A stretch of 46,771 nt of DNA, taken from contig JAMOAB010000073.1 of assembly GCA_023621995.1 (NCBI GenBank), positions 1-46,771 of the forward strand. The letters are read 5' to 3'. Source of the stretch: Bacillota bacterium (GTDB taxonomy: Bacteria > Bacillota > Clostridia > Caldicoprobacterales > Xylanivirgaceae). Positions within the stretch are counted from its first letter, which is position 1, and every line of letters begins with the position of its first letter. A model generated the notes under the pieces. It searched no databases. It was not told where the DNA came from and was given only the letters and a program-made list of their open reading frames with translations. Below, piece by piece: positions 488 through 46,359 of the stretch. The position numbers and the translations under genes are program-made.

Positions 488-1504
488 ATGAAATTAAAGG
501 AGTCACAAAATGAGGTATGGAAACCAATACCAGAGTATGAGGAGCATTACCTAGTAAGTAATTTAGGAAGAATTAAAAGTATAAAATTCGGCAAGGAAAA
601 AATCTTGAAAGGAAAAATAACGGGGGATTATGTAGAAATAGATTTAAGGAAGCCAGGTTACTTAGTTAGAACAGTCAGAGTTCACAGATTAGTAGCAGAA
701 CTATTTCTAGATAATCCAAATGAATACCCTGTAGTAAATCATAAAGATGGGGATAAACATAATAACATGGCAAGTAACCTAGAGTGGTGTGACTACTCTC
801 ATAACAACAGAGAAGCCTATAGACTTGGACTAAATAAAACTAGACCTATCATTCAAAAGGACATTGAAGGGAATATAATTAAAAGATGGGGCTCTGTAAA
901 AGAAGCTAGTGAAGCCTTAAATATAAGTGGCTCTAACATATCTAAATGTGCTAGAGGACAGGTAAACACAAGTGGGGGATATACATGGGAATATAGTTAC
1001 AGGGGATTTGAAAAAGTAAGTACAGAAGCAATTTTAGCTAACTTAACAAGAGTCAAAGAGGAAGGAAAGCCGAATGTCTTTGCATCTGATAGAGTGATAA
1101 TGCCACTTAGAGGGACTAAGCACTCTGCTGGATATGATATTTTCAGTCCAATTCCACAGGATATAGTAATCCCACCTAATAAGAAAGTACTTATTTGGTC
1201 TAATATTAAGGCTTACATGCAGGAAATGGAAGTCTTAGTGGCTGTAGTAAGAAGTTCAATGGGAATTAAATTAGACCTCACTTTAGCTAATACTTTAGGT
1301 ATTATTGATATGGATTACTATAATAATCCTAAGAATGAAGGAAATATAGGGATTTGTTTAAAGAATACAGGGGATAAAGATGTTATTATCAAATATGGGG
1401 ATGCTATTGGACAAGTGATTTTCCTTCCTTATTTAGTATCTGATAACTGTAATACAGACAATGACAGAGTTGGGGGAATAGGCTCAACTACTAAAACTAA
1501 TTAA
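488..1504 (+). CDS. HNH homing endonuclease fused to dUTPase
   Basis: Two unrelated proteins share one open frame. Residues 1-170 look like a homing endonuclease: a NUMOD4-like start (WKPIPEYEEHYLVSNLGRIK), an HNH core with VNHKDGDKHNNMASNLEW, and a NUMOD1-like DNA-binding segment (SVKEASEALNIS). Residues 172-338 are a trimeric dUTPase, which hydrolyses dUTP to dUMP and PPi. All five motifs are visible: SAGYDIFSP, RSSMGIK, GIIDMDYYNN, GDAIGQVIF and RVGGIGSTT. The dUTPase begins RGFEKVS, which resembles the normal N-terminus of clostridial dUTPases, so the endonuclease seems joined exactly at the former start codon. No internal start with a ribosome site is visible. Start chosen for AAAGGGGGA about 9 bases upstream. 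The reductase gene follows after 15 bases. Confidence 0.85.
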   Translation: MKLKESQNEVWKPIPEYEEHYLVSNLGRIKSIKFGKEKILKGKITGDYVEIDLRKPGYLVRTVRVHRLVAELFLDNPNEYPVVNHKDGDKHNNMASNLEWCDYSHNNREAYRLGLNKTRPIIQKDIEGNIIKRWGSVKEASEALNISGSNISKCARGQVNTSGGYTWEYSYRGFEKVSTEAILANLTRVKEEGKPNVFASDRVIMPLRGTKHSAGYDIFSPIPQDIVIPPNKKVLIWSNIKAYMQEMEVLVAVVRSSMGIKLDLTLANTLGIIDMDYYNNPKNEGNIGICLKNTGDKDVIIKYGDAIGQVIFLPYLVSDNCNTDNDRVGGIGSTTKTN

Positions 1505-1519
1505 GGGGGAATATAGAGC

Positions 1520-4501
1520 ATGTTAGCAAAGTATAAGAACAGGTTATTATCAAAAGAATTTTTAAGTAACTATCCAGACTTCCCAGAACATATGACAGAG
1601 ATAGGGAAATTTGTATACTTGAGAACTTACTCAAGATGGCTTCCAGAAGAGCAGAGAAGAGAGACATGGAAGGAAACTTGTACTAGAGCAGTTGAGTATA
1701 ACTGTTCTTTAGCAAAAACTTCAAGACAAGAAGCAGAGGAGTTATTTGATGCTATGTTTAATCTAAAACAAGCATTAAGTGGAAGAACTTTATGGGTAGG
1801 AGGAACGGAAGTAGCAGAGAAGTATCCTCTATCAAACTTTAATTGCTTTAGAAGGGACACCGAGTTTCTAACTAAGGAAGGGATAAAAACTTTTTATGAT
1901 TTTGAGGATGGAGACATAGTAGAAGTTTTGAATGGAAACGGAGCTTGGAGTCCGTCAGTAGTTAGAAATTATGGAAAGCAAAAACTATTAAAATTAGTAG
2001 TTCAAAGACAAGGAACTAAATACACAGAGGATATATATGTTACAGGTAATCATATATGGTTTGTAAAAAAAGGAAATGAAAAGAGATATGTAGAAGTAAC
2101 TACTAGTAATTTAAAACCTGGTGATAAATTAAGAAGAAAAGTTAGATACGAGAATACTAATCTAAATATGTGCAACATAGGGATACAACATGGTATAGTA
2201 TTTGGAGATGGAACTTTTGATAAGAAAAAGGGACATTGTAGAGTATCTCTAATAGGGAAAAAACAAGATTACATTAAGTATTTTAATAATGCACCTACAA
2301 CTACAGAAGGGCATAGGGACTCAATTTTAGTTTATGGATTACCATATTACTTTAAGGATTTACCTCCAATAAATGCGAATGTTGAGTATATAAAAGGATT
2401 TATATATGGACTATTATTAACAGATGGTAGATTGGGGAGTAGCGTTAGACTAGGGCAGAAGAATTTAGAAGTAGTAAAACATTTACAGAGTATGTGTGAG
2501 ATTATAGGATTGACAACATCTAAGATAGTGGAAGTAAGTAGAACTAACAATAACTTTGGGGACTATGAAAATACCTATGAGTTTACTATTCATAAGGAAA
2601 CTTTAAGAAAACATGGTATGCTTGTAAGTAAAGCAGAAGAAAGAGAGTGGATAGTAAAAGAAGTATTAGAAACGGATTTATTAGAGGATGTATGGTGTGT
2701 AGAAGAGCCTAAAACTAACTCATTCACATTAAGAGGGGGAATACACACTCATAATTGTGCTTTCACTGTAATGGATAGTATAGAAGCAATAAGAGACCTA
2801 TTCTACTTACTAATGGTAGGAACAGGAGTGGGATTTAGGATACTAAAAGAAGATGTAGATAAATTTCCTAGAGTAAAGCAGAATGTAAAATTAACTCATA
2901 AAGAGTATGTTCCAAAACCTAAGATGCTTAGAGATGAATTATCATCACTAGAGTTCTCTGGAAATTCCCCTAAAGCTACTATTAGAATAGGGGACTCAAA
3001 AGAAGGATGGGTACAAGGGATAACTCATTATTTTGAAGTAATGACAAACCCTCTAATAAGAGTTGATGAGATTGAAATAGATTATGACTCTGTAAGACCA
3101 AAAGGAGAGAGACTTAAGACATTTGGAGGGACAGCCAGTGGATATGAGAGCTTACGAACTATGTTCCAGAAGATACACAATGTAATTACTACAGATATGT
3201 ATGCACCTAAACCAGAGAATGGGAAGTTAAGACCTATTCACCTTTTAGATATTTGTAATATCATAGGGGAGAATGTAGTAGTTGGAGGAGTTCGTAGAAC
3301 TAGTGAGATAGCTCTTTTAGATGAGGATGATATAGAGTCTATAGAAGCTAAATTAAATTTAACTCCAGAGAAATATCATAGGTTTATGAGTAATAATAGT
3401 ATTTACTATACTAAGAAACCTACAAGAGAGAAATTAGCATGGCAGTTCCAAGTACTAAAAGAAACAGGAGAGCCCGGTTTTGTAAATGCAGTAGAGGGTA
3501 AGAGAAGAAACCCTAATTTCAATGGAATTAATCCATGTGCAGAAGTACTTCTTGACAAAAACCAGACTTGTAATTTAACTACGGTTAATGTATTAGCATT
3601 TGTTTATTATAAAGATGGAAAAGCCCATTTAGACTTAGAAGGACTATTGCAAGCTCAAAGAAGGAGTGCAAGAGCTGGATTAAGAATGACAGAAGTAAAA
3701 TTAGAGCTCCCTAATTGGAATTACAAGCAGAAGAGAGATAGATTATTAGGTTGCTCAGTAACAGGCTTTAAAGATGCTATGGAAGCTCTAGGATACACTA
3801 AAGAGCAAGAGCAGGAGCTTGAGAGACTACTAAGAGATACAGCTAGAGAAGAAGCTAATAAGTATGCTGATGAATTAGGAATTAATAGACCTTTATTAGT
3901 TACAGCAGTTAAACCAGAAGGTACATTGTCTCAAGTATTTGGAGGAGTTAGTTCTGGATTACACCATGCTCACAGTCCATACTACATTAGAAGAATTAGA
4001 ATTAATGCCCATGACCCACTTTGTAAGACACTAGAAGCTAGTGGATGGGAGTTAAAGAATGAAGTAGGACAGGGAGAAGAATTTGGGACTCCAGTAATGA
4101 CTAAAGTAGTTGAATTTCCAATGTCCAGTCCAGCTAAGAGGACTAAGTATCAAGTATCTGCATTGGAGCAACTAGAGACCTACTACAGCTTCCAAGAGCA
4201 CTATACAGAGCATAATAGCTCCAATACCATTAGTGTAAAGAATGATGAGTGGGAAGATGTAGAACAGTATATTTGGGATAATTGGGACAGGACGTTAGCA
4301 GTATCATTCTTGAGTCTTACAGACCATATTTATCCATTAGCTCCTTACGAAGCTATTGATAAGGAAGAATATGAGCAAAGACTGGCTAATATGAAACCTA
4401 TTAATACAGAATTACTAAGACTCTTTGAAGTGGGCAATAGCGATGAAGCTGATTTAGGGGATAATGATGAGTGTGCTAGTGGAGTTTGTCCTATTAGATA
4501 A
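1520..4501 (+). CDS. adenosylcobalamin-dependent ribonucleotide reductase (class II) with intein
   Basis: Reduces ribonucleotides to deoxyribonucleotides for phage DNA synthesis. Removing the intein (residues 109-412) leaves 689 residues, close to monomeric RtpR/NrdJ reductases (about 740). Seen in the extein: NPCAEVLL then TCNLTTVN, whose cysteines are 11 apart as in the radical and redox pair C408/C419 of the Lactobacillus enzyme; VKPEGTLSQVFGG near the substrate phosphate site; and a C-terminal CASGVC for re-reduction. The cysteine directly after the intein (C413, context N-CAFTVMD) fits the other redox cysteine (C119 equivalent). A class II enzyme needs coenzyme B12 and no oxygen, fitting an anaerobic host. 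Ribosome site AAGGGGGA; terminator directly after the gene. Confidence 0.9.
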   Translation: MLAKYKNRLLSKEFLSNYPDFPEHMTEIGKFVYLRTYSRWLPEEQRRETWKETCTRAVEYNCSLAKTSRQEAEELFDAMFNLKQALSGRTLWVGGTEVAEKYPLSNFNCFRRDTEFLTKEGIKTFYDFEDGDIVEVLNGNGAWSPSVVRNYGKQKLLKLVVQRQGTKYTEDIYVTGNHIWFVKKGNEKRYVEVTTSNLKPGDKLRRKVRYENTNLNMCNIGIQHGIVFGDGTFDKKKGHCRVSLIGKKQDYIKYFNNAPTTTEGHRDSILVYGLPYYFKDLPPINANVEYIKGFIYGLLLTDGRLGSSVRLGQKNLEVVKHLQSMCEIIGLTTSKIVEVSRTNNNFGDYENTYEFTIHKETLRKHGMLVSKAEEREWIVKEVLETDLLEDVWCVEEPKTNSFTLRGGIHTHNCAFTVMDSIEAIRDLFYLLMVGTGVGFRILKEDVDKFPRVKQNVKLTHKEYVPKPKMLRDELSSLEFSGNSPKATIRIGDSKEGWVQGITHYFEVMTNPLIRVDEIEIDYDSVRPKGERLKTFGGTASGYESLRTMFQKIHNVITTDMYAPKPENGKLRPIHLLDICNIIGENVVVGGVRRTSEIALLDEDDIESIEAKLNLTPEKYHRFMSNNSIYYTKKPTREKLAWQFQVLKETGEPGFVNAVEGKRRNPNFNGINPCAEVLLDKNQTCNLTTVNVLAFVYYKDGKAHLDLEGLLQAQRRSARAGLRMTEVKLELPNWNYKQKRDRLLGCSVTGFKDAMEALGYTKEQEQELERLLRDTAREEANKYADELGINRPLLVTAVKPEGTLSQVFGGVSSGLHHAHSPYYIRRIRINAHDPLCKTLEASGWELKNEVGQGEEFGTPVMTKVVEFPMSSPAKRTKYQVSALEQLETYYSFQEHYTEHNSSNTISVKNDEWEDVEQYIWDNWDRTLAVSFLSLTDHIYPLAPYEAIDKEEYEQRLANMKPINTELLRLFEVGNSDEADLGDNDECASGVCPIR
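1844..2755 (+). mobile_element. intein with LAGLIDADG endonuclease in the reductase gene
   Basis: 304 codons. It begins with Cys (CFRRDTEFLTKEG, splicing block A) and ends IHTHN followed by Cys, a canonical C-terminal junction. VTGNHIWF fits block B. GIVFGDGTF and GLLLTDGRL are the two LAGLIDADG helices, so this is a full intein able to home at DNA level. Splicing would give SNFN-CAFTVMD, restoring the reductase next to an essential cysteine. Confidence 0.92.
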
Positions 4502-4508
4502 CAACTAT

Positions 4509-4530
4509 GGGGAGGTTATCCTCTCCTTTT
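4509..4530 (+). terminator. rho-independent terminator after reductase gene
   Basis: Seven-base stem GGGGAGG (4509-4515) with CCTCTCC (4520-4526), one G-U pair, loop TTAT, then TTTT. Confidence 0.7.
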
Positions 4531-4568
4531 ATTATGATGATGTGGACTTTAAATAAAGGAGAGATGAT

Positions 4569-4715
4569 ATGTTAAAATTCCTAAAGAGATTAAAATGTAA
4601 GCACGATTATAGAGTTATAGAAGTAATATACGGAGATAGGATTAATTATTTAGGGGCTAGGAATATACAAAGATGCACTAAATGTGGTAAGGAGATTTTA
4701 GGAGGAAAATTATAA
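4569..4715 (+). CDS. small zinc-ribbon-like protein, 48 aa
   Basis: Short frame starting MLKFLKRLKCKHDY and ending RCTKCGKEILGGKL, preceded by AAAGGAGAG at a suitable distance. One cysteine and a histidine near the N-terminus (CKH) and a CTKCGK pair about 30 residues later could bind one metal ion. Small proteins of this kind are common in phages of Firmicutes and their role is unknown. It lies between the reductase terminator and the kinase gene, whose ribosome site directly follows the stop codon, suggesting joint translation. Confidence 0.65.
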   Translation: MLKFLKRLKCKHDYRVIEVIYGDRINYLGARNIQRCTKCGKEILGGKL

Positions 4716-4727
4716 GGGGGAAATAAG

Positions 4728-5306
4728 ATGAAGAATAAAGTTATAATTATTGAAGGAGCACAGGGAGTAGGTAAGGGAACAATAACTAATATACTTAGGG
4801 AACAGATGCCTTATACAAACCTACTAAGACTATCTGGAACTAGTGATAAGACAGCAGAAGGAAAGAATAAAGTATACAACATTAGGGTAGCAGAATTAGA
4901 TATGATAAGAAATAGTAGATTTTGTGATATAAACTTTATATTAGATAGAAGCTATTTATCGGAAGTAGTATATTGTAAAATTGGCTATAAAGATTATACA
5001 TTTGAAGAAGAGAGCCTTAATCTTAATAACTTCTTAAATGAATTGACTAATTATTATGATGTCTATGTAATAGTACTTACAGCTACTCCAGAGGAGTTTG
5101 AGAAAAGGTTAAAAAGAGACAAGCCAGAGTTCTTAAATTTAAAGTTCAATCCGGATAGTAGTATTAGACAGCAGAAAGCATATTTAGAAGAGATGCGTAA
5201 CTTAAAGAGAACTTACCCTGCAATTAATTGTTATGAAGTTCCTACTAGTGGTAGAGACCCTTATGATATAGCTTATGATATATTAAGTGTAGTGAGGAGA
5301 GATTAA
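4728..5306 (+). CDS. deoxynucleoside/thymidylate kinase-like P-loop protein
   Basis: 192 residues. A Walker A loop GAQGVGKGT is at residues 10-18 after a short beta strand (VIIIE). ILDRSYLSEVVY about 60 residues further fits the DR(S/Y) motif of the thymidylate kinase and deoxynucleoside kinase superfamily. EEFEKRLKRDKPEF resembles their lid region with basic residues. The enzyme would phosphorylate a nucleoside or nucleoside monophosphate, consistent with neighbours making dNTPs (reductase, dUTPase, deoxyribosyltransferase). The exact substrate cannot be read from the sequence. Ribosome site AAGGGGGAA precedes the ATG. Confidence 0.72.
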   Translation: MKNKVIIIEGAQGVGKGTITNILREQMPYTNLLRLSGTSDKTAEGKNKVYNIRVAELDMIRNSRFCDINFILDRSYLSEVVYCKIGYKDYTFEEESLNLNNFLNELTNYYDVYVIVLTATPEEFEKRLKRDKPEFLNLKFNPDSSIRQQKAYLEEMRNLKRTYPAINCYEVPTSGRDPYDIAYDILSVVRRD

Positions 5307-5308
5307 AG

Positions 5309-5337
5309 TTGACAAACATATGCTTACTTGTTATAAT
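5309..5337 (+). promoter_or_regulatory. consensus sigma-A promoter
   Basis: TTGACA (5309-5314), 17-base spacer, TATAAT (5332-5337) with an extended TGT. The -10 lies in the near-palindrome CTTGTTATAATAAG, which could also bind a regulator. It drives the cluster from 5367. Confidence 0.85.
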
Positions 5338-5366
5338 AAGTATACCTAATTTAAGGAGGGAAAATA

Positions 5367-5729
5367 ATGTATATTGAAAACGAGCCTAAAGTAGAAGAGA
5401 TAATCTATGAGGACACAGTAATAAACTTCTGTCCTATAGGGAAGAGTCTCTACAGAAACAATTTAACTATCATAATTCATCCAGACAAGATTCTTCCAGA
5501 TTATATTGAGGTGCATAAAGAAATAAGAGAACTTGAAGGTAAAAGCCTTATTATTGAAGAAGTAGTAGATTTAGTATTAGATATTATAAAGAGATATAAT
5601 CCTCATAGAGCTAAAGTAACAACTATTGTAGATGATGCTAACCACCCTAAAGTAACTATTTCAAAGACATATGTAAGACCAGAAGAAATAACTTTAAAGG
5701 GGTGTAATTGTGAAAAAGAAAGCTGTTAA
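5367..5729 (+). CDS. unassigned protein, possibly tunnelling-fold (QueF-like)
   Basis: 120 residues. The order of segments, FCPIGKS, a strand, HPDKILPDYIEV, GKSLIIEEVVDLVLDIIK (a helix) and two strands (AKVTTIV, PKVTISKTYV), recalls the T-fold of QueF-type nitrile reductases, where CP and ESKSL motifs are key. The match is loose and the usual QueF glycine/arginine motif (RGG) is missing. It ends with a cysteine-rich tail (GCNCEKESC). First gene after a consensus promoter; the next gene starts inside its 3' end. A role in deazaguanine or pterin chemistry is only a guess. Confidence 0.45.
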   Translation: MYIENEPKVEEIIYEDTVINFCPIGKSLYRNNLTIIIHPDKILPDYIEVHKEIRELEGKSLIIEEVVDLVLDIIKRYNPHRAKVTTIVDDANHPKVTISKTYVRPEEITLKGCNCEKESC

Positions 5730-8314: not shown

Positions 8315-11300
8315 ATGATGGCAAAGATAACAACCACAGAGTTAGTTAATAAGATATTTGCTTTTTGTGAAGCCTATTCTGGAATTGAGCTTTTCCCATA
8401 TCAAGCACAGTTTGGGAAGAGAATAATAAGGTCTGTATTGGAGAATGATGGGGAAGAGATAACAGCTCTTTTCGCAAGACAATGTTTAGTAGGAGATACA
8501 TTAGTTCACATGGCAGATGGAACTAAAAAGCCTATAAAAGAAGTTGAAGTAGGAGAGAAAGTATTAGCATTTGATTATAACACCCTAGTAGAGAGGGAAG
8601 TAATTGACAGTTATAGAGTCGGAAAGAGAGAAGTTTACCGATTAAGATTAAAGAGTGGGTACGAAATTGAATGTACACCAAACCACAGATTTTTAGATAG
8701 AGGAACTAAGATGTTTAAAGAGTTAGCTAGATTTGAAGCAGGAGATGAGATAGGCTACTTAGATGAGAATGGAAAGACTAAATTCTCAAGAATTAAGAGT
8801 ATAACATTTATGGGAGAAAAGGAGACTTATGACCTTGAAGTAGAAGGAGCAGAAAACTTCTTAGCTAATAATATACTAGTGCATAATAGTGGGAAATCAG
8901 AGACAGTAGCTACAATATCTGGAGGATTAGCAATTATTTTACCTATATTAGCTAATATGCCTATGTTTGTTACTGATAGAAGATTGGATATGTTCAAGAA
9001 TGGGATAATGATAGGTATATTTGCACCTACATTAAGACAAGCTCAAATAACATTCTCAAGAATGAAGAAGAGAATGAATAGTATTCATGCTCAAGCTATC
9101 TTATCCGACCCAGAGATAAATATAAGTTTTGATGTATCAAATGGACAGAATATAATTCTTTCTAATGGCTCACTTATTAGTTCACAGTCAGCTAGTGAGG
9201 GCTCTAATATAGAAGGTGACTCATATATGCTTATTATAGTGGATGAGTCACAGGATGTTGGAAACTTCAAGTACTCTAAATGTCTATCAGAGGACACAGA
9301 AGTGTGGTTACCCAATGGCTCCAAGGCAACTATTAAAGATGTTGTAGAGAATAAGATGGATGTAGTGACATTAGATGGGATTAGGACTCCAGATGAGTTT
9401 TATAATAATGGAATACAGCCTGTATATGAACTTACCTTATCTAATGGGAGAAAGATTGAAGCAACAGAAAACCATCAATTCTATGTTAGAAGAAGAATAG
9501 GGAATAGAGTTCCTAAATGGGATACTGTGAGTAATATAGAAGTTGGGGATACCATAGCAGTACCAAAAGAAATGCCTTACTTTGGGGATAAGTATAATCA
9601 AAGACAAGGGCAACTTGTAGGATTTATGCTAGGGGATGGATGCATGACGGGGGATAGTCCAATGATATGTGTAAATAAGAAAGTAAGAGACTATATCATC
9701 CCCTATTTACTTAGAGATTTTGAAAATACTGAATACAAAGAAACAACTTACAATGAGCAGAAAGATTTAAGTGAAGGTTATTTTAAGAGAATTAGTAGGA
9801 AAGGTAATAAAGAAGGGGAGCTAAAGTTATTTTTAAAGGAGTTAGGGATTTGGGGATTAAAAGGCTCTGAAAAAACAATTACTCCCCAGATATTTAATGC
9901 TAGTAAATCATTTTTAAAAGGACTAGTAATGGGTTTAATAGAAAGTGATGGAAGTGTATCTAATAATGAGATAGTATTTAGTAATACTTCTGAAAGCCTT
10001 GTTAGAGGATTTCAAGATATACTTCTTAAATTTGGAGTACCTAGTAGAGTTAGTGTAAGAGAGCAGAATGGCGATTTTGGAAAAAATCCTAAACCTATAT
10101 GGAGTTGCACTATCAAGAGTAAAGAGGGGATATTAAAGTTCTTTGGTGAGTTTGAACTATTTACTAAACAGAAAAAACTAGTCCAATTAGTAAGAAAAAT
10201 CGAAGCTAAGAATGGAAATAGAAAAGTAGTGAATGATGTAAGGAGAGGTAAATTTAGAGATGATATATATTTTGAGAGAGTTGTTAGCAAAAAGTTAATA
10301 GGAGAAAAGCCAACTTACTGCTTGAAAGTAGAGGGAAGAAACTTTATAGCTAACGGGATTGTATCGTCTAACTCAATCTCACCCATGGGAGCTTTCTACA
10401 ATGCTACTAAGATACTTATAGGAACATCAACAACTCAAAAAGGCTTCTTCTATGAGTCTATTGAGAGAAATAAGAAGGAATATGCTAATGGAGGAAAGAG
10501 AAATCACTTTGAGTATAATTATAAAACAGTAATTAAGTATAACCCTAAGTATGAGAAGTATATAGAAGGAGAGAAGAAGAGAATAGGAGAACATTCAATA
10601 ACGGGGGATAGAAATGTTACAGTTAGGATAAATGGATTGATTACTACAATACCTATAGAGGAGCTTTATAACTTATTTAGTAATGCTAGTAATCAAGGGG
10701 AAGGAAAGGTAGCACCTACAAATTTAGAGGCTCTTTCAGCTTCAAAAGGTAAAGTAATAAATAGTTTATTTGACCTAAAGGAATATCATTTAACTCCGAA
10801 GCAAATACCTATTATAAAAGCTCTGCAAGAAATAGGGCATACAAATTACAATTATAAACAATTGATAGCAGAAAAAACAGGATTGAGCTTAAATAGAGTA
10901 TCTCATGTATTAGCCTATGTTAGAAAATTAATGAAGCAGGGATATTATTATGAAATAGTACCTGAATGGAATAAGGTAACTAATATTATCAAACATAAAA
11001 ATAAACATAATATTTATAGAATGAGTAATGGGCAGGGAGAAATAGTAGTTACTGAATGTCACTCTTTAATGGAAGTAGCAAAGGATGGACTAAGAGAAGT
11101 TAAACCACTACAAGCATCTGATTTGTATAGGATAAGAGAAATCCCGATTGACAGTTATTTAGACTTTGTGGATTTTAATTTCCTTTTAGATTTGAATACT
11201 GAAATATATAATGAACATAGTTTTACTCAATTTGTAAAAGAAGATGGATTTATAAAGTTAGTATCTAGGAGAGATAAAACCCCTAGTATAAGGATAAGGG

Positions 11301-13693
11301 AGAAACTTGAAGTAGGCTCCGAAGAATATAAAGCCTTTTGTAGGATACTTGGAGCTTATGTTTCAGAAGGACATGTTTTACAAAGAGATTTAACCGCAGG
11401 AATTTCAAGTAATAATATTGAATGGATTCGTCAGTTACAGAAGGATGTGCAACTAGTGTTTAATTATAATGCTCCTATAGTTATTAGCAATAAATTAAAC
11501 TCTAAAGGGGAAAATTATGATGAAACGTACAGACTTTGCTTAAATAGGAAATTAATTGGAATTATTTTAAAAATATTATGTGGGCAGGGAAGTCATAATA
11601 AAAAGATACCTAATTTCTTATTTAACGTAAGTGGAGATAATGTAAAAGATTTCTTAAAGTATTTAGTTGAAGGTGATGGATATAAGATAAAAGGAGAAAG
11701 TAACTTTGGATACATTACTGCTTCACTTCAATTAGCTAGTGGATTACAATTATTACTAACCCAATTAGGGAGAAGTGTCCATGTACAAAGGAATAAAAAT
11801 GGGTATTATATATTAAAAACTCAAGAAGAGGGGATTTTAAATAGACGAACTAAGTTAGAGTTAGAATTATTAGGTAAGAATAATTATGAATATGTCTATG
11901 ACTTGGAAGTGGAAAATGCTCATACATTTGTAGATAGTTTAGGACAAGTGTTGCTTCATAACTCGGATGAGTTCCAAATGTCTTATAATTTAAAGTGGAT
12001 ATTAGAGAGAGGTATGTTTGTTAGTGGGAAGTTATTTGATGAGTTAGCAGACCCTCATAGGGGACTCTCTATAATGGATACTAAGAACTCCCATGTAGTA
12101 GGAATAGACTTAGGAAAGAAACAAGATAGTACAGTTATAACAGTATTAGAAGTAGACTGGGATAATCCTACAATAGTAGATAAAGCACAGGAAGCAGGAG
12201 TACCAGATTATATAGCCTATCCAGTATTCATTAAAGCATGGAAAGAGATACAGGGAGACAACTGGAATGAGCAGTATGACATTATAATGGACTTTCTAAG
12301 TAACTTTAATGTAGTAAGAATAGTAATGGATGCTACAGGAGTAGGGGATGCAATATATGATAGATTAAGAGCTAACTTAAATTATGAAGTAGTTCCTTAT
12401 GTACTTAGTAGACAATCTAAGAGTGATTTATACAAGCACTTAAATTCAGAGTTCAGAGCTAAGAGAGTTCGCTATCCAGCAGATGAAGAGACAAGGGAGA
12501 CAATAGAGTTCAAAAAATTTCAACAGCAATTCTTAGATTTAGAGAAGGGATATAGTGGGCAGTTAATGGTAGTATCTCACCCAAATATAGCAGGAGCACA
12601 TGATGACTACTGCTTATCTCTAAACACTGAAATACTAACAAAACGAGGTTTCTTAAAGTACAACGAACTTACAGAAAATGATTTAGTAGCTAAAGTTGAA
12701 AATAACAAGATAACCTATGTAAAACCAAACAAAGTAATAATAAAGGATTATAAAGGGAAGATGTATAGATTTAAGTCTAAAGATTTATGTTTAGAAGTTA
12801 CAGAGAACCATAAGATGTTATTAAGAGATAAGGCTAAGAGGGAATTAATAACATTATCTCAAGAGTTAACTTTAAAAAGTAGTAAAACCTTATATAGTAA
12901 CTTTAGTATTCCAGTAGCCCCAATTCAAGATGAAAAGGAATACCCTATATCAGATGAATTATTAAAATTATGTGCATGGTTAATTACAGAAGGTTGGATA
13001 AATAAAGATAATAAATACAACTCATATAGATACTCCGTAGCCCAATCAAGTAATAAAGAAGGACATAATAGAATAAGTTCCTATATAGCTAAGCTAGAGT
13101 TAGAGCCTTACGTATATACAAGAGGAGACGGAGTAACTTATTGGACATTCCATAAGAAAGATAATGAATTGTTTGATAACATACTAAAAGAAGGTATTCA
13201 CAGAATACCTAGAGAGTGGCTAAGTAATTTATCACAAAGACAACTAAAGTTATTATTAGATGAACTTATGTTAGGGGATGGGACATTATCAAGGAATACT
13301 TACCACACAAAAAGTTTAGAGTTAGCTAGAGATTTTCAAGAGTTAGCTCATAAAGTTGGGATAAAAACATCTATTAGAAAGCAAGTTAGACAGAATAATC
13401 ATACTATGTACGCTTGTTATTTAATGAAGCAAGATGAAACTAGAATACAATCTTATGATGTATATAACTATAAAGGTAAAGTTTGGTGTGTTAATGTAGA
13501 TAATGGATTTATAGTAACTAGATGTGACAATAAAATAGCTGTAACAGGAAATTGTGATAGCTTGGCTCTAGCAGTATGGGGAGCTAAAGGGGATGAAGTG
13601 TATAGACCAGTAACAGAGAAAGAGAATATATATAAGAAAGCATCATCTAATTTTGTTCAAGCAATAAACAGATTTACAGCTAAAAGAAGATAA
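8315..13693 (+). CDS. terL: terminase large subunit carrying four inteins
   Basis: ATPase-nuclease that cuts and packages phage DNA. The 1792-codon frame holds 1269 intein codons; the spliced protein would be 523 residues, a usual TerL size. Extein motifs: Walker A FARQ-SGKSE (split by intein 1), Walker B YMLIIVDESQD, a coupling region KSISPMGAFYNA (split by intein 2), IGTSTTQKG, the RNase H-like nuclease motif GIDLGKKQDST, VRIVMDATGVGD, and HDDY-CDSLALA (split by intein 4). Intein 3 lies between ATPase and nuclease domains (GEH-SDEFQMS). ATG codons at 8315 and 8318 both follow AAAGGAGG; 8318 has better spacing (7 bases). No small terminase gene is recognisable next to it. The portal gene follows 14 bases later. 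Confidence 0.95.
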   Translation: MMAKITTTELVNKIFAFCEAYSGIELFPYQAQFGKRIIRSVLENDGEEITALFARQCLVGDTLVHMADGTKKPIKEVEVGEKVLAFDYNTLVEREVIDSYRVGKREVYRLRLKSGYEIECTPNHRFLDRGTKMFKELARFEAGDEIGYLDENGKTKFSRIKSITFMGEKETYDLEVEGAENFLANNILVHNSGKSETVATISGGLAIILPILANMPMFVTDRRLDMFKNGIMIGIFAPTLRQAQITFSRMKKRMNSIHAQAILSDPEINISFDVSNGQNIILSNGSLISSQSASEGSNIEGDSYMLIIVDESQDVGNFKYSKCLSEDTEVWLPNGSKATIKDVVENKMDVVTLDGIRTPDEFYNNGIQPVYELTLSNGRKIEATENHQFYVRRRIGNRVPKWDTVSNIEVGDTIAVPKEMPYFGDKYNQRQGQLVGFMLGDGCMTGDSPMICVNKKVRDYIIPYLLRDFENTEYKETTYNEQKDLSEGYFKRISRKGNKEGELKLFLKELGIWGLKGSEKTITPQIFNASKSFLKGLVMGLIESDGSVSNNEIVFSNTSESLVRGFQDILLKFGVPSRVSVREQNGDFGKNPKPIWSCTIKSKEGILKFFGEFELFTKQKKLVQLVRKIEAKNGNRKVVNDVRRGKFRDDIYFERVVSKKLIGEKPTYCLKVEGRNFIANGIVSSNSISPMGAFYNATKILIGTSTTQKGFFYESIERNKKEYANGGKRNHFEYNYKTVIKYNPKYEKYIEGEKKRIGEHSITGDRNVTVRINGLITTIPIEELYNLFSNASNQGEGKVAPTNLEALSASKGKVINSLFDLKEYHLTPKQIPIIKALQEIGHTNYNYKQLIAEKTGLSLNRVSHVLAYVRKLMKQGYYYEIVPEWNKVTNIIKHKNKHNIYRMSNGQGEIVVTECHSLMEVAKDGLREVKPLQASDLYRIREIPIDSYLDFVDFNFLLDLNTEIYNEHSFTQFVKEDGFIKLVSRRDKTPSIRIREKLEVGSEEYKAFCRILGAYVSEGHVLQRDLTAGISSNNIEWIRQLQKDVQLVFNYNAPIVISNKLNSKGENYDETYRLCLNRKLIGIILKILCGQGSHNKKIPNFLFNVSGDNVKDFLKYLVEGDGYKIKGESNFGYITASLQLASGLQLLLTQLGRSVHVQRNKNGYYILKTQEEGILNRRTKLELELLGKNNYEYVYDLEVENAHTFVDSLGQVLLHNSDEFQMSYNLKWILERGMFVSGKLFDELADPHRGLSIMDTKNSHVVGIDLGKKQDSTVITVLEVDWDNPTIVDKAQEAGVPDYIAYPVFIKAWKEIQGDNWNEQYDIIMDFLSNFNVVRIVMDATGVGDAIYDRLRANLNYEVVPYVLSRQSKSDLYKHLNSEFRAKRVRYPADEETRETIEFKKFQQQFLDLEKGYSGQLMVVSHPNIAGAHDDYCLSLNTEILTKRGFLKYNELTENDLVAKVENNKITYVKPNKVIIKDYKGKMYRFKSKDLCLEVTENHKMLLRDKAKRELITLSQELTLKSSKTLYSNFSIPVAPIQDEKEYPISDELLKLCAWLITEGWINKDNKYNSYRYSVAQSSNKEGHNRISSYIAKLELEPYVYTRGDGVTYWTFHKKDNELFDNILKEGIHRIPREWLSNLSQRQLKLLLDELMLGDGTLSRNTYHTKSLELARDFQELAHKVGIKTSIRKQVRQNNHTMYACYLMKQDETRIQSYDVYNYKGKVWCVNVDNGFIVTRCDNKIAVTGNCDSLALAVWGAKGDEVYRPVTEKENIYKKASSNFVQAINRFTAKRR
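8483..8887 (+). mobile_element. TerL intein 1 (mini-intein) in Walker A
   Basis: 135 codons. It begins CLVGDTLVHMADGTKKPI, has CTPNHRFL as block B and ends NNILVHN followed by Ser. No LAGLIDADG or HNH segment is present, so it is a Hint-only mini-intein that can splice but not home by itself. Splicing restores FARQ-SGKSE, the ATP-binding loop; without it TerL cannot bind ATP. Confidence 0.93.
9281..10372 (+). mobile_element. TerL intein 2 after Walker B, with LAGLIDADG endonuclease
   Basis: 364 codons from CLSEDTEVWLPNGS to ANGIVSSN, followed by Ser. Block B is ATENHQFY. LVGFMLGDGCM and GLVMGLIESDGSV are the two endonuclease helices. The residue before the terminal Asn is Ser, not the usual His. 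Splicing gives NFKYSK-SISPMG, 14 residues after the DESQD motif. Confidence 0.9.
10595..11962 (+). mobile_element. TerL intein 3, Ser-initiated, with LAGLIDADG endonuclease
   Basis: 456 codons, the longest of the set. It begins with Ser (SITGDRNVTVRINGL), a known alternative first residue, and ends QVLLHN followed by Ser. VTECHSLMEV fits block B. ILGAYVSEGHV and YLVEGDGYKI fit the endonuclease helices. About 100 residues with helical, winged-helix-like character separate block A from block B, longer than in the other inteins, possibly an extra DNA-recognition domain. Splicing gives RIGEH-SDEFQ. Confidence 0.88.
12611..13552 (+). mobile_element. TerL intein 4 in the nuclease HDD motif, with LAGLIDADG endonuclease
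   Basis: 314 codons from CLSLNTEILTKRGF to KIAVTGN, followed by Cys. VTENHKMLL is block B; LCAWLITEGWI and LLLDELMLGDGTL are endonuclease helices. The penultimate residue is Gly rather than His. Splicing restores HDDY-CDSLALA, the metal-binding motif of the nuclease active site. Confidence 0.9.
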
Positions 13694-22471: not shown

Positions 22472-23143
22472 ATGAATAAGAAAACTATTGAAAAAGAAAT
22501 GTTGTACAAGCTCTATATAGGGGAGCAAATGTCTATGAGTGAAATAGCTAAAGAACTAAATATAAGTAAAGCTACTGTACAAAGGAAATTAAAGAAATTT
22601 GAAATACCTATAAGGGATATTAGTGAAGCTAAGAAAGGCAGGAGTAATGGGCAGGAGGGAACTCTAAGGAAGGATTTAGATAAGGAAGCCATAATAGAAG
22701 CCTATAATGATATGACTAGTATGCGACAGTTATGCATAGATTTTGATGTATCATACAAAACACTTAGGAAGTACTTTGAAATATGGGGAGTTGAAATTAG
22801 ACCTCACGATGTACAAACCACTTACCATAATAAAGTATATAAGACTGGGAAGAATTACAGACCTAGACAAGCTCCTACACATGAAGTACCTAAAAAGAGG
22901 AAGAAGAATTATGGGGCTCAAAATAAGAACTATCACCACATTTATCATAGAGTAGCTTTTAGTACTTATCCTCATGAATGTTGTGTATGTGGATATAATG
23001 AATTTACTGAAATATTAGAAGTACATCATATTGATGGGGATAGAAGCAACAATGAACCAGAAAATCTTAGAATAATTTGTCCTAACTGTCATAGAGCATT
23101 AACTAAAGGTTTAATAGAGTTAAAAGATAAAGTTCAAGTTTAA
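22472..23143 (+). CDS. free-standing HNH homing endonuclease
   Basis: 223 residues. N-terminal helix-turn-helix segments (MSMSEIAKELNISKATVQRKL; then SMRQLCIDFDVSYKTLRKYF) give DNA recognition. The C-terminus is an HNH nuclease with two Cys pairs: CCVCGYNEF, then LEVHHIDGDRSNNEPENLRIICPNC. It has its own promoter before it and a terminator after it, so it is a self-contained insert between tail tube and tail chaperone genes. Likely a selfish gene homing into that junction in related phages. Confidence 0.88.
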   Translation: MNKKTIEKEMLYKLYIGEQMSMSEIAKELNISKATVQRKLKKFEIPIRDISEAKKGRSNGQEGTLRKDLDKEAIIEAYNDMTSMRQLCIDFDVSYKTLRKYFEIWGVEIRPHDVQTTYHNKVYKTGKNYRPRQAPTHEVPKKRKKNYGAQNKNYHHIYHRVAFSTYPHECCVCGYNEFTEILEVHHIDGDRSNNEPENLRIICPNCHRALTKGLIELKDKVQV

Positions 23144-34522: not shown

Positions 34523-36646
34523 ATGCCAGATTTTAGTTATAAAAGTAAATTTAATAAAGAAGCCAACTTCGTCAGTATACGGTTTGGGGCAGATGCACCT
34601 CTACTAGAGACGGAATTAAATGAAATGCAGGACATACAAAGACATAGGCTAAAGTCAGCCTTAAAAGCCATTGTACAAGATGGATTATTGGCGGGTGGAA
34701 GTTTAACTTATGATGGAAGTAAGTTTATTATAGAAAATACAGATGCTATTATTGATGGAGAAGTGTATCATATTTCTCATTTAGAAATTACAGTTAGTGA
34801 TGGGGAAGATGTATACTTAAAAGTTTGGGAGAAGGATATATCATATCAATCTACAATAAAGAAATATGGAAATGAGCAAGAAGTAACCATACCTAATGAA
34901 ATATTTGATGAAAGAGTAAATCAAGAAACCTCTAGAAGAGTAGCATTAGTTTATGATTTAACTAAAGTTAAAGATGGTAATGGAAAGTTTTTAAAATTAG
35001 GAAGAATATCTGGGGGAAGTTTTATAAAAGAAGTACAAGAAATAGCAAATCTTACAGAACTTGCTGATATTAGTCAATTAGGTAGTCTAAAAGATGATTT
35101 AGATGAACATAAGGCAGAAATTACGACTGAAGAAGGTCGACATGGGTTAAGGTACTGGAATGATAAACTTGAATTTTTTGATGGTTCAGATTGGATTGAA
35201 ATTAAAACTGGTGGCGGTGGTGTTCCTCCATCTAATGTCATCAATCCATCTATCATTGTTGGGAATTCCCAACTTACAATCAAATGGGATGACCCTGAAG
35301 ATACTGTTGTTGATGGTCAAACAATTTCAACATGGGCAGGAACAAAGCTTGTAAGAAAAGCTGGAAGTTACCCAACTAATGAAAAAGATGGGATTGTTCT
35401 TGTTGACAATAAAGTAAGGGGTGCTTATTTTTCAACTGGATTTGTTGATTCAGGACTAACTAATGGGGTGACTTATTACTATCAACTATTTCCATATTCC
35501 GACCAAGGTGCAGTAAATAGAAATGAAGCAAATAGGCTTTCTGGCACACCACAACCTTATAAAATTTATGGTGTAGCAATTGACCTTACAAACAGCAACC
35601 CTGAAACAGCAGTAACTTATACAGATGATGCTGTTGGCATGACTGGCGGTTCTTCTGCCTGGGATAGCATGGCAATATTCAAGGACATAAAACCTTGTGT
35701 ACTTAAAAATGGAGTTGTTCAATATTATTTAGACCCCAACGATTTTACAAAAAAGGTTGATGGTACACCAGCAGATATTGAAAGTGGTAATGATGGGGAT
35801 GTAATGATTGAAATTCCCAAGACAGGATTTTTAATATCAACTGTCGGAAACATTTTAACTGTAAAAGTAACAGATAACCCAAATAATCCTAATTTTAAAT
35901 ATTATGCCCACACCAGGGTTACAGAAGGCGATAGGGATAAACTTTACATTGGAGCTTACCTGGGTTGGAAAGATGGCAGTAATAAATTAAGAAGTTTGAG
36001 TGGTAAAACACCAACTGCTTCACAAACGATTGGAACGTTCAGAACACAGGCAAAAGCAAATGGTTCAGGTTATGACTTGGTTTCCTTCTACCCTTTGACT
36101 TTACTTCAATGCTTATACTTAATTAGGTATAAAAATCTTGATTCCCAAACTGCACTTGGTAGGGGTTATGTAGATGGAAATAGTGCTGCAACTAATACTG
36201 GTGGAACGAATGCAAAAGGAATGTTCTTTGGAGAAACAACAGGTAAGCAACAAATGAAATTCCTGGGGATTGAAGATTTTTGGGGCAACCTTCGCTGGTG
36301 GATTGATGGCTTGTATAGTGATGCGAATAGAAACATAATGACAGCCTTTAAAGATTTCAATGATACTGGAAGTGGATACACTAATAGAGGTCAGGGAGCA
36401 ACATCAGATATATATGGATATATGAGTAAACCACAAGGATTTACTGAAGCTGGATTTGTTCTAAAGGAAAATAATGGTTCTGAAACAACTTACTTTTGTG
36501 ATTACGCTTATTTGAGCACTTCCCGCTTGCCTTATTTCGGTGGTAATTGGAATTTTGGTTCTCGTGCGGGTGCTTTCTATCTTAGTGTGTATCATGATGC
36601 TTCGTATTCGGATTCCCATCTGGGCGGTCGCTTGATGTATTTATAG
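34523..36646 (+). CDS. DGR variable tail fibre protein with C-type lectin-like domain
   Basis: 707 residues. Residues 1-190: fibre attachment part (FGADAPLLETELNEMQDIQR). About 228-345: fibronectin III-like domain (SQLTIKWDDPED, GLTNGVTYYYQLFPYSD). About 347-707: lectin/formylglycine-enzyme-like fold with GIEDFWGNLRWWIDGL and a C-terminal GGNWNFGSRAGAFYL. Codons 661-707 form the variable repeat. Most replaced residues are Asn in the template (AAT/AAC) and become Tyr, Ser, Phe, Arg, Asp or His, as in known DGR targets. From about 35110 onward glycine codons switch from GGA to GGT, so the 3' two-thirds look imported with the retroelement. Likely the receptor-binding fibre tip. Confidence 0.92.
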   Translation: MPDFSYKSKFNKEANFVSIRFGADAPLLETELNEMQDIQRHRLKSALKAIVQDGLLAGGSLTYDGSKFIIENTDAIIDGEVYHISHLEITVSDGEDVYLKVWEKDISYQSTIKKYGNEQEVTIPNEIFDERVNQETSRRVALVYDLTKVKDGNGKFLKLGRISGGSFIKEVQEIANLTELADISQLGSLKDDLDEHKAEITTEEGRHGLRYWNDKLEFFDGSDWIEIKTGGGGVPPSNVINPSIIVGNSQLTIKWDDPEDTVVDGQTISTWAGTKLVRKAGSYPTNEKDGIVLVDNKVRGAYFSTGFVDSGLTNGVTYYYQLFPYSDQGAVNRNEANRLSGTPQPYKIYGVAIDLTNSNPETAVTYTDDAVGMTGGSSAWDSMAIFKDIKPCVLKNGVVQYYLDPNDFTKKVDGTPADIESGNDGDVMIEIPKTGFLISTVGNILTVKVTDNPNNPNFKYYAHTRVTEGDRDKLYIGAYLGWKDGSNKLRSLSGKTPTASQTIGTFRTQAKANGSGYDLVSFYPLTLLQCLYLIRYKNLDSQTALGRGYVDGNSAATNTGGTNAKGMFFGETTGKQQMKFLGIEDFWGNLRWWIDGLYSDANRNIMTAFKDFNDTGSGYTNRGQGATSDIYGYMSKPQGFTEAGFVLKENNGSETTYFCDYAYLSTSRLPYFGGNWNFGSRAGAFYLSVYHDASYSDSHLGGRLMYL
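36502..36643 (+). repeat. DGR variable repeat (VR)
   Basis: Aligned without gaps to the template 208 bases downstream. Over the first 133 positions all 22 differences fall where the template has A (14 to G, 6 to T, 2 to C). Only the last few bases (36635, 36639) differ at template T. The segment covers the final 47 codons. Confidence 0.96.
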
Positions 36647-36657
36647 GGTTAATATAT

Positions 36658-36884
36658 GGGCAATGGTAAAGATTGGATTTCATTACCTGCTTAAAAAATA
36701 GTAGAAAGTTTACACTAATTTGAACACTTCCCACTTACCTAATTTCAGTGGTAATTGGAATAATGGTTCTAATGCAGGTACTTTCTATCTTAATGTGAAT
36801 CATGATACTTCGAATTCGAATTCCAATCTGGGCAGTCACTTATTGTTTTTAAGCTTAAATTTTTCCCACTGACTTCCATTGCCC
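36658..36884. repeat. 9-base inverted repeat flanking the template
   Basis: GGGCAATGG at 36658-36666 and CCATTGCCC at 36876-36884 are exact reverse complements on either side of the TR. In RNA they could close a stem around the template. Confidence 0.6.
36710..36851 (+). repeat. DGR template repeat (TR)
   Basis: Non-coding donor copy lying between the fibre gene and the reverse transcriptase. If read in the frame of the VR it would give 12 Asn codons in 46, ten of which are changed in the VR. Known DGRs transcribe this RNA, copy it with adenine-specific errors and overwrite the VR. Confidence 0.95.
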
Positions 36885-36992
36885 TGGCTCTTGCCAAAAC
36901 ATAAAAATTTTTTAAGCTGTATTAGTAGACTTGAAAATTAAGTTTCAAGTTCGAAAATTCGGCATTAAAAACATCAAAGTAGGGGTTATTTC

Positions 36993-38054
36993 ATGAAAAG
37001 ATATGGAAATTTATATTCCAAAATCTATGACATGGAGAACCTTAAACTGGCACATAAAAATGCAAGGAAAGACAAATTATTTTATAGAGAAGTTAAGATG
37101 GTTGATAGTGATAAAGAATATTATTTAACACAAATTCAAGAAATGCTGAAGAATAAAACCTATGAAGTGAGTGAATACACTGTTTCAGTGATTTCAGATA
37201 AGGGAAAAGAAAGAGAACTTTATAAACTTCCATATTACCCTGATAGAATTGTTCAGTGGGCAATTATGTTACAAATTGAATTTGTATTTCTACAAGTATT
37301 CACTGATTTTACATGTGCTTCTTTAAAAGGCAGGGGTATTCACAAAGCTTCAGCACTTCTTGATAAGTATATGGGGGATAAAATTGGAACAGCATACACT
37401 TTAAAAATAGACATTAATAAATTTTATCCAAGCATTAACCATGACATCTTGAAAAGATTATTAAGAAAGAAATTCAAAGATGCAGACCTTCTTGAATTGT
37501 TGGATAAGATTATTGATAGTATTTCAGGTGATAAAGGTGTTCCAATAGGTTCTTATCTTTCCCAATACCTTGCTAATTTTTATCTTGCATACTTTGACCA
37601 TTGGCTAAAAGAACAAATGGGTGTTCAATATGTCATAAGATATATGGATGATATTGTTATCTTACATCATTCTAAAAAGTTTCTTCACTGGTTGAAAAGA
37701 AAGATAGATAATTATTTAAAACAAGAACTTGAATTGACTGTAAAAGATAATTGGCAAGTGTTTCCTACTGCAATCAGGGGAATTGATTTTGTAGGATATC
37801 GGCATTTTTATGGTTATAAATTATTAAGAAAATCAACTTGTAAAAGATTTAAGAAAAAGATGACTGCAATTAAAAAGAAATGTGATGCTGGTCAAAAGAT
37901 AACTTATTCAGAATGGTGTTCAGCTAATTCATATAAGGGTTGGTTAAAGTGGTGCGATAGTTATAGATTAAGTCAAAAGTACATTGCACCTATTCAAAAA
38001 TATTTGGATGATTATTACATTACTGAAATTAAAGAAAGGAAGGTTAACAAATGA
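36993..38054 (+). CDS. DGR reverse transcriptase
   Basis: 353 residues. Catalytic carboxylates: D140 in LKIDINKFYPSIN and YMDD at 217-220. PIGSYLSQYLANFYL (184-198) has the GxxxSQ signature of DGR enzymes, where group II intron and retron enzymes differ. No maturase, HNH or other domain follows. It copies the TR transcript with errors at adenines and supplies cDNA for replacing the VR. It starts 142 bases after the TR and its TGA overlaps the next start (ATGA). GGT-rich codon use matches the 3' part of the fibre gene. Confidence 0.95.
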   Translation: MKRYGNLYSKIYDMENLKLAHKNARKDKLFYREVKMVDSDKEYYLTQIQEMLKNKTYEVSEYTVSVISDKGKERELYKLPYYPDRIVQWAIMLQIEFVFLQVFTDFTCASLKGRGIHKASALLDKYMGDKIGTAYTLKIDINKFYPSINHDILKRLLRKKFKDADLLELLDKIIDSISGDKGVPIGSYLSQYLANFYLAYFDHWLKEQMGVQYVIRYMDDIVILHHSKKFLHWLKRKIDNYLKQELELTVKDNWQVFPTAIRGIDFVGYRHFYGYKLLRKSTCKRFKKKMTAIKKKCDAGQKITYSEWCSANSYKGWLKWCDSYRLSQKYIAPIQKYLDDYYITEIKERKVNK

Positions 38055-38311
38055 AAGATATGGGTATTGTAAGGGGTTCTGCTACCCAAGCAGTTCCTTT
38101 AATCATTGGTAAAGATACTGTCTATGTGCATACTGACATCACCCCTGTTGAGGGTGAAGAAGGTCTATTCCAATACCATGAAGTTCAGTATGAAAAAGAT
38201 GAATACATCAAAATGTTGGCTGAACAGAGCAATTTACAAGGTAATTATTTATTAGATGTTGATTATAGGTTATCACTTGTAGAAAAGGGGGTAAATATAA
38301 ATGACCTATAA
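38051..38311 (+). CDS. 86-aa protein coupled to reverse transcriptase, unknown
   Basis: Starts MKDMGIVRGSATQAVPLIIG and continues with DTVYVHTDI, FQYHEVQYEKDEYIKMLAEQ and YRLSLVEKGVNINDL. Overlaps the reverse transcriptase stop by 4 bases and shares its GGT-rich codon use, so it belongs to the imported block. It is shorter than, and not helical enough for, the usual Avd accessory protein (about 120 residues, four helices). The sequence also resembles small tail-fibre-associated proteins of Firmicute phages. Either role is possible. Confidence 0.6.
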   Translation: MKDMGIVRGSATQAVPLIIGKDTVYVHTDITPVEGEEGLFQYHEVQYEKDEYIKMLAEQSNLQGNYLLDVDYRLSLVEKGVNINDL

Positions 38312-45717: not shown

Positions 45718-46359
45718 ATGGGAAGAAGAAAGGGTAGCAAGTCATATTCAAAGGAAGAACTAAAGGAATTTATAGATAAGTTCATAAGTATAAATAATAG
45801 AGTTCCAGAGAGAAGAGACTTTGAGAATAACCCAGACTATCCATCATGGAGACAGTATGTAACTAATTGGGGGAGCTGGGGACAAGCAATAGTGGATTTA
45901 GGATATAGGGATTCTAAGAAAGAGAAGAAGCAATTAAAAAATTATAAGTGCTTAGAGTGTGGGGGAGAATTTGAGTCATATCACAAAAGAAAATATTGCA
46001 GTATTAAATGTAGGGATGAATATAATAGGAAACAACCTAAAGCTAAAGCAAGATTAACCAAAGAGAACTATAGAGCCATAGCATTTAGAACTTATGAGTG
46101 GAAATGCGAGATATGTGGGATGGAGGAAGATGTAGAATATTTATATGGTAAGAGTAAGTCAGTAGAGTTCCCTACTATATTAGATGTTCACCATATAGAC
46201 TCTGATAGGAATAATAACAACTACAGGAACTTATCTGTACTATGTCCAACTTGTCATGCAAAAGTACACAGAGGTATAATAGTTAATTTAAGAAGAGACA
46301 AGCCATTTTTGAAATTGAAATGGGACAAACTATCTTTAGAGGAGTTCAATAATAAGTAA
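45718..46359 (+). CDS. HNH homing endonuclease
   Basis: 213 residues. N-terminal homing-endonuclease-associated repeat (INNRVPERRDFENNPDYPSW, NWGSWGQAIVDLGY) for DNA contact, then a zinc-finger-like CLECGGEFESYHKRKYCSIKC, then the HNH domain (CEICGMEEDVEYL, DVHHIDSDRNNNNYRNLSVL, CPTC). Preceded by ATGGAGGGA and followed by a terminator, so it is a self-contained unit like the HNH gene at 22472. Third HNH protein of the window. Confidence 0.88.
   Translation: MGRRKGSKSYSKEELKEFIDKFISINNRVPERRDFENNPDYPSWRQYVTNWGSWGQAIVDLGYRDSKKEKKQLKNYKCLECGGEFESYHKRKYCSIKCRDEYNRKQPKAKARLTKENYRAIAFRTYEWKCEICGMEEDVEYLYGKSKSVEFPTILDVHHIDSDRNNNNYRNLSVLCPTCHAKVHRGIIVNLRRDKPFLKLKWDKLSLEEFNNK

Follow-up and report, generated by a model that had tools for sequence, protein, structure and literature searches.

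The window, a stretch of 46,771 nucleotides from a member of the Bacillota (contig JAMOAB010000073.1 of assembly GCA_023621995.1; here C169), is part of a 3.08-Mb genome of 175 contigs. No terminal overlap of 20 to 50 nt was found in it. Profile searches revealed the gene content of a contractile-tailed phage, with genes for a portal protein, a major head protein, tail sheath and tail tube proteins, a tape measure protein, baseplate J and gp25 proteins, an amidase, a glucosaminidase, and a holin. The preliminary description of this DNA placed a complete diversity-generating retroelement (DGR) on the tail fiber gene at positions 34523 to 38054. All of its parts were recovered: a tail fiber target, a variable repeat (VR), a template repeat (TR), and an intact reverse transcriptase (RT). 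The features of the locus are listed in Table 1.

Table 1. Features of the DGR locus, with positions in the window
Feature	Position	Strand	Remarks
Target gene, tail fiber protein (707 aa)	34523..36646	+	Open ORF; N-terminal DUF4815-like domain, C-terminal DGR variable-protein domain
Predicted C-type lectin-fold domain (residues 341-707)	35543..36643	+	Ends in the VR
VR	36502..36643	+	Mutagenized zone, 36502-36620
GC-rich guard zone	36621..36631	+	Directly 5' of the IMH; TR adenine/VR guanine at 36626 and 36630
IMH of the VR	36632..36643	+	TTGATGTATTTA; the 7 nt at its 5' end are antisense to part of the spacer element
TR-closing helix, 5' strand	36658..36666	+	GGGCAATGG; between VR and TR; perfect complement of 36876-36884
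TR	36710..36851	+	3' end (36840-36851), TTATTGTTTTTA, is IMH*
TR-closing helix, 3' strand	36876..36884	+	CCATTGCCC; just 5' of the first RT-17 hairpin
Structured spacer RNA, Rfam RT-17 (RF03020)	36880..36981	+	61.3 bits; gathering score, 40.4
Bipartite spacer element	36965..36977	+	TTAAAAACATCAA; in the unpaired spacer tail
DGR-type RT (353 aa)	36993..38054	+	Open ORF; YMDD and IGSYLSQ; PF00078, E 8e-19

The target is a tail fiber gene with a predicted lectin-fold tip

The target gene matched PHROG tail proteins 5302 and 10588, and residues 6 to 100 of its product matched PF16075. The VR reaches to within 3 nt of the ORF end, counting the stop codon, as is characteristic of DGR targets. The preliminary description had assigned a lectin fold to the fiber tip, and the C-terminal domain (residues 341 to 707) was modeled with AlphaFold2 by using an alignment with 39 relatives. 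The model was of high confidence (pLDDT, 96.3; pTM, 0.95). A Foldseek search of the PDB with this model returned TaqVP of Thermus aquaticus (5vf4) as the best match, followed by Mtd, both of which are DGR variable proteins. VIA-align gave a Z score of 25.5 for TaqVP (rmsd, 2.8 over 255 residues) and of about 11 for Mtd. TaqVP is the closest solved fold to the variable domain, but it is the target of another DGR and is 19% identical over the aligned residues. The model and the fold searches together support the predicted fold, and the lectin assignment holds.

VR and TR differ at template adenines and in a short 3' zone

Realignment returned the previously described VR and TR exactly, at an offset of 208 and over 142 columns. 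The repeats had been said to differ at 22 sites, all of them adenine in the template. Twenty-two adenine sites were indeed found (14 A-to-G, 6 A-to-T, and 2 A-to-C differences), but the total was 24, and the statement that all are adenine is not quite right because the remaining two, at 36635 and 36639, are T to A. With random placement, the chance of at least 22 of 24 differences falling on the 40 adenines among the 142 sites is 6e-13. Further inspection revealed that the differences are laid out in three zones. All 19 in the mutagenized zone are at TR adenines, 12, 5, and 2 of them at codon positions 1, 2, and 3, respectively. The guard zone contains two, both A to G, and the other three separate the IMH from IMH* (36634, A to G; 36635 and 36639, T to A). 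This layout explains the two nonadenine differences that were missed earlier, which belong to the IMH/IMH* zone. An IMH in the VR and a differing IMH* in the TR are characteristic of DGRs, and the boundary is common to the relatives.

The zones were also analyzed in relatives aligned on the IMH boundary (position 36632 of the window), with redundant loci retained. As far as position -12, any base could replace a TR adenine and nonadenine differences were nearly absent; from -11 to -1, 101 of 110 TR adenines were G in the VR; and from position 0 onward, VR and TR differed at any base. As judged from these alignments, the A/G of the guard zone is a fixed difference and not random mutation. The VR-TR-RT layout with adenine-specific differences was common to more than 55 loci, some of them redundant, which together contained 1108 A-to-G, 365 A-to-T, 209 A-to-C, and about 53 other differences. 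A whole-genome search revealed no further VR for the window TR; the only strong matches were the TR and VR themselves, and the remaining matches were weak (E of 0.07 or worse).

The DGR-type RT that had been described after the TR retains both YMDD and IGSYLSQ and was assigned to PHROG reverse transcriptase 1423 (E 1e-124). Among solved structures, the nearest in sequence is 8ub7 (E 5e-30), a reverse transcriptase that, at 328 aa, is as long as the bRT of phage BPP-1 (328 aa). An adjacent RT of this type with an intact active site is a further hallmark of DGRs, and, by sequence, the window RT is related to BPP-1 bRT. Related RTs among named genome contigs were mostly from Clostridia and other Firmicutes, the nearest being that of a Tissierellia MAG (82%).

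These data bear on whether the repeats could be an ordinary duplication lying beside an unrelated RT of the retron, group II intron, or defense type. NCBIfam profiles for group II, Drt3a, and retron RTs did produce weak matches, all far below their cutoffs. The adenine bias and its recurrence in the same layout at the more than 55 loci exclude this reading, the DGR variable-protein fold and the match to 8ub7 also argue against it, and we accord it virtually no probability.

Comparison with a close relative points to past retrohoming

One relative (L006) was 94.2% identical to the window over 3110 bp, and its RT was 99% identical. The L006 TR differs from the window TR at 7 sites, and the L006 VR was changed at all 7. 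Six of these changes match the new TR base; the remaining site, at which the L006 TR gained an adenine, has T in the VR. The remaining 18 differences between the two VRs all lie at shared TR adenines. This is the pattern predicted for copying of TR into VR with errors at adenines. Since each of the seven TR changes private to L006 has a counterpart in its VR, TR-to-VR copying must have occurred after L006 and the window separated; the sequences put this separation at about 6% DNA divergence and the homing later. The comparison is indirect evidence of the TR-to-VR information transfer that is characteristic of DGRs. Together with the adenine-specific differences in more than 55 relatives, it supports the past mutagenic retrohoming that the preliminary description had proposed.

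The spacer contains a predicted RT-17 RNA, and a helix may close the TR

The region downstream of the TR exceeded the gathering score of the Rfam family RT-17, and a structured spacer RNA in this place is characteristic of DGRs. Scans of 30 relatives detected RT-17 in 18, in each case between TR and RT. The BPP-1 spacer belongs to the Rfam family Phage_DGR, and that of a second DGR in the same genome, on contig C163, belongs to RT-14. Because all three families match DGR spacers, RT-17 and RT-14 are best read as DGR spacer RNAs. The short Rfam description of RT-17 gives no function, and its name comes only from lying near RTs; here, the family is tied to the TR, the VR, and IMH pairing. Among the papers searched, none contains both RT-17 and DGR as terms, and prior publication is possible.

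In most relatives, the gap between VR and TR can form 8 to 14 perfect pairs with the spacer, usually immediately 5' of the first hairpin, as in the window. The strands of this predicted helix differ in sequence (GGGCAACCAA/TTGGTTGCCC in L007, AGGTAACGGA/TCCGTTACCT in L011, and AGGCAAGTAAAATA/TATTTTACTTGCCT in L025). Covariation was judged by pairing strands with their own or with swapped partners. Own partners paired over a mean of 9.5 nt versus 6.7 nt for swapped partners, and pairing of at least 8 nt was seen in 79% versus 18%. The helix likely holds the TR as a loop and stops the RT at the TR 5' end. An alternative pairing of 11 nt, between 36689-36699 and 36907-36917, is also possible in the window.

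A spacer element matches the VR and then the TR

In the unpaired tail of the spacer, positions 36965-36973 pair with TR 36844-36852 and positions 36971-36977 pair with VR 36632-36638. The reverse complement of this element, TTGATGTTTTTAA, is a chimera that reads TTGATGT as in the VR and then TGTTTTTAA as in the TR. We scored this rule in 39 distinct lineages as the longest spacer match with a single VR-to-TR crossing. The mean was 10.5 nt, compared with 7.3 nt for shuffled and 7.9 nt for swapped spacers, and the VR-then-TR order won over the TR-then-VR order by 30 to 1 (ties in 8 of 39; p 3e-8). At sites that distinguish VR from TR, the spacer agreed with the VR by 42 to 3 at positions 1 and 2 and with the TR by 66 to 5 at positions 6 to 9. 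Because placement was optimized, fair controls for these counts are provided by the scores for reverse order and for shuffled spacers. The rule was not seen throughout: besides the ties, there were four lineages (L009, L030, L071, and L076) in which the best placements lay away from the IMH. The conserved match between IMH and spacer may in part be due to shared ancestry; swapped spacers still outscored shuffled ones.

The rule also extended to other DGRs. Among 30 BPP-1-like lineages, the VR-then-TR order prevailed by 19 to 2 (z 6.7). Swapped spacers in this group (7.9) scored nearly as high as own spacers (8.4) because the IMHs are mostly one sequence, and the group therefore adds less independent weight. 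Among 22 lineages resembling the C163/RT-14 DGR, the count was 15 to 0 (z 12.9), and the rule was not clearly seen in the nearest RT-14 members of that group. In BPP-1 itself, spacer nt 48 to 56 (AGGTGGTCA) are the exact reverse complement of the VR from nt 118; the element ends at A56, and the TR base before nt 118 is G117. We take BPP-1 cDNA to be primed by spacer A56 and to start opposite G117. By analogy with A56, A36977 is the likely priming base in the window.

The element might instead pair with the TR only, for priming, in which case its match to the VR would be a residue of earlier homing events that copied the primer end and would play no part in targeting. Consistent with this, matches are longer on the TR half (a mean of 8.0 nt for TR-only matches versus 6.9 nt for VR-only matches), and priming by an internal spacer adenine within IMH* is established for BPP-1 (PMC12875486). 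Priming alone predicts a full-length match to the TR, however, and the spacer departs toward the VR at 42 of the 45 differing sites at positions 1 and 2. Moreover, in L049 and in L051, each of which contains two VRs, both VRs carry a spacer-matching IMH that the TR lacks. IMH/IMH* differences are also known to stop the TR from acting as a recipient (PMC4891356). We regard priming alone as possible, at a probability appreciable yet well under one half.

As for a bipartite element that also matches its target, open-literature passages on the IMH contained no mention of spacer-IMH complementarity; a prior description in the subscription literature on BPP-1 RNA is possible. The pairing rule is possibly new. 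Its sequence pattern is strong, and from that pattern we infer its function.

The locus has no Avd gene and no conserved hairpin after the VR

No Avd, a component of BPP-1-type cassettes, was found among the proteins scanned, and the interval from VR to RT has room for the TR and spacer only. The profile PF22296, which recognized BPP-1 Avd as a control, detected a single copy in the whole genome, on C163 with the other DGR, and none on the window contig; none was detected in 20 relative phage records, many of them fragments. Avd is essential in BPP-1 (PMC12875486). The DGR type of the window probably dispenses with Avd or uses a different partner.

The C163 DGR has the same VR-TR-RT layout and a target that is of the lectin type by sequence motif, and its VR and TR differ at 14 of 26 TR adenines and nowhere else. 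It differs from the window DGR in having its own Avd and an RT-14 spacer. With Avd and a DGR RT encoded there, Avd might be provided in trans, and the window element would then not be truly Avd-less. Against this, the RT that accompanies Avd on C163 is only 37 to 39% identical to the window RT, and Avd was seen in 0 of the 20 relative records, which cover phages, many of them as fragments. We consider provision in trans unlikely.

We also found no conserved hairpin or cruciform just after the VR (z -0.5 in the window; mean z of -0.37 for the family, with values below -2 in 6 of 39 lineages). Such a hairpin aids homing in BPP-1 (PMC3240598), but it was rejected as a feature of this family. The lack of both Avd and the hairpin would fit a relic in which the RT and repeats persist and homing has ceased. 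We judge this very unlikely: the RT ORF is intact with its YMDD motif, the TR-derived changes in the L006 VR indicate homing since about 6% DNA divergence, and the spacer, helix, and IMH pairing are maintained across lineages.

Discussion

The window almost certainly carries a DGR that belongs to a contractile-tailed Clostridia phage and was active at least until recently; in it, mutagenic copying of the TR varies the lectin tip of the tail fiber. That this is a known kind of system, here lacking Avd and having an RT-17 spacer, is well supported. With the BPP-1 DGR (mtd-avd-TR-brt; NC_005357) it shares a lectin-fold tail protein target, adenine-specific VR/TR differences, IMH and IMH* at the 3' ends, a spacer RNA between TR and RT, a related RT (bRT), and a spacer element antisense to the VR IMH. 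The two also differ. In BPP-1, Avd is encoded between VR and TR, the spacer is of the Phage_DGR family (RF03022), and a stem-loop lies 4 nt past the VR; the window DGR has an RT-17 spacer, with neither Avd nor a conserved stem-loop after the VR.

In the mechanism that we propose, the DGR RT would copy the TR RNA together with its RT-17-type spacer, misreading adenines, and the mutagenized cDNA would replace the VR of the tail fiber gene, so that residues of the C-type lectin tip vary. Spacer positions 36965-36977 would anneal to the TR 3' end and prime at or near A36977, with copying beginning opposite TR C36839. Priming on the TR would tolerate a small mismatch bubble, and pairing would then extend into the VR without mismatch. 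With a primer end that is complementary to the VR IMH and mismatched to the TR IMH*, the primer-cDNA would be able to extend its pairing with the VR but not with the TR. The identity of the gene, its position in the tail fiber, and its fold suggest that host binding would vary as a result.

Taken singly, the locus is one more phage DGR. The comparative set, on the other hand, provides a likely function for Rfam RT-17 and describes a type of DGR in which Avd is absent, the spacer is structured, and a helix closes the TR. How mutagenized cDNA finds the VR while the TR is spared is called "incompletely understood" in a 2026 paper (PMC12875486). The comparison of about 90 relatives suggests, from sequence patterns, a simple pairing rule for where copying starts and how the target is found, and this rule would offer a base-pairing explanation both for finding the VR and for sparing the TR. 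More generally, DGR spacer RNAs may share a bipartite guide, one half of which would anneal to the template 3' end and place the priming adenine, and the overlapping half of which, attached to the cDNA as its RNA end, would be antisense to the target IMH and mismatched to IMH*; we give this proposal an even chance. If it is true, a single short stretch of nucleotides would initiate cDNA synthesis, lengthen the pairing of cDNA with target, and spare the template from rewriting, and the bipartite guide would be common to Avd-less RT-17 elements and BPP-1-like ones.

Related retroelements and the region around the reverse transcriptase

A ATATGGGCAA-like motif is usual in the gap between variable repeat (VR) and template repeat (TR) among related diversity-generating retroelements (DGRs; loci L021, L026, L039 and others), and this motif forms the 5' strand of the helix that closes the TR. 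Directly after the reverse transcriptase (RT) of the window lies an 86-amino-acid ORF, which overlaps the stop end of the RT gene by 4 nt. A Pfam scan of this ORF matched no family, and it therefore is not recognizably Avd.

Three other contigs of the same genome also carry DGR components. On C157, a homing-endonuclease-like ORF (4076-4843) comes after a second DGR target gene that has a VR, and directly after this ORF stands an RT fragment that begins at MDDF, that is, at the YMDD active site; avd, a TR and the N-terminal part of the RT are absent from this locus. Its target closely resembles that of the DGR on C163. The RT on C84, at a locus cut by the contig start, is 59% identical to that of the window, and its RT-17-like spacer scored slightly under the cut-off. 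The same contig carries a type II hammerhead ribozyme.

Features of the phage contig and of other contigs of the same genome
Feature	Location	Remarks
Terminase-type ORF	window 8315-13693	1,792 aa, a single ORF
HNH-endonuclease-type ORFs (n = 3)	window 488-1504, 22472-23143, 45718-46359	
86-aa ORF	window 38051-38311	PHROG 18126 (unknown function)
Second DGR target gene with VR, homing-endonuclease-like ORF, RT fragment	C157 (L097) 2721-5266	
Further DGR	C163 (L095) 2489-5495	Avd, RT-14 spacer, lectin-like target
Third DGR RT with RT-17-like spacer; type II hammerhead ribozyme	C84 (L096) 40-1190 and 3843-3908	

Probable homing elements of the phage

The terminase-type ORF matches the terminase large subunit in two places, residues 160-203 and about 1241-1391; matches of primase type and of thymidylate-synthase type lie between these two or after them. 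This ORF appears to be a terminase split by one or more inteins. One of the three HNH-endonuclease-type ORFs is fused to a dUTPase-like part. Homing elements seem to be abundant in this phage.
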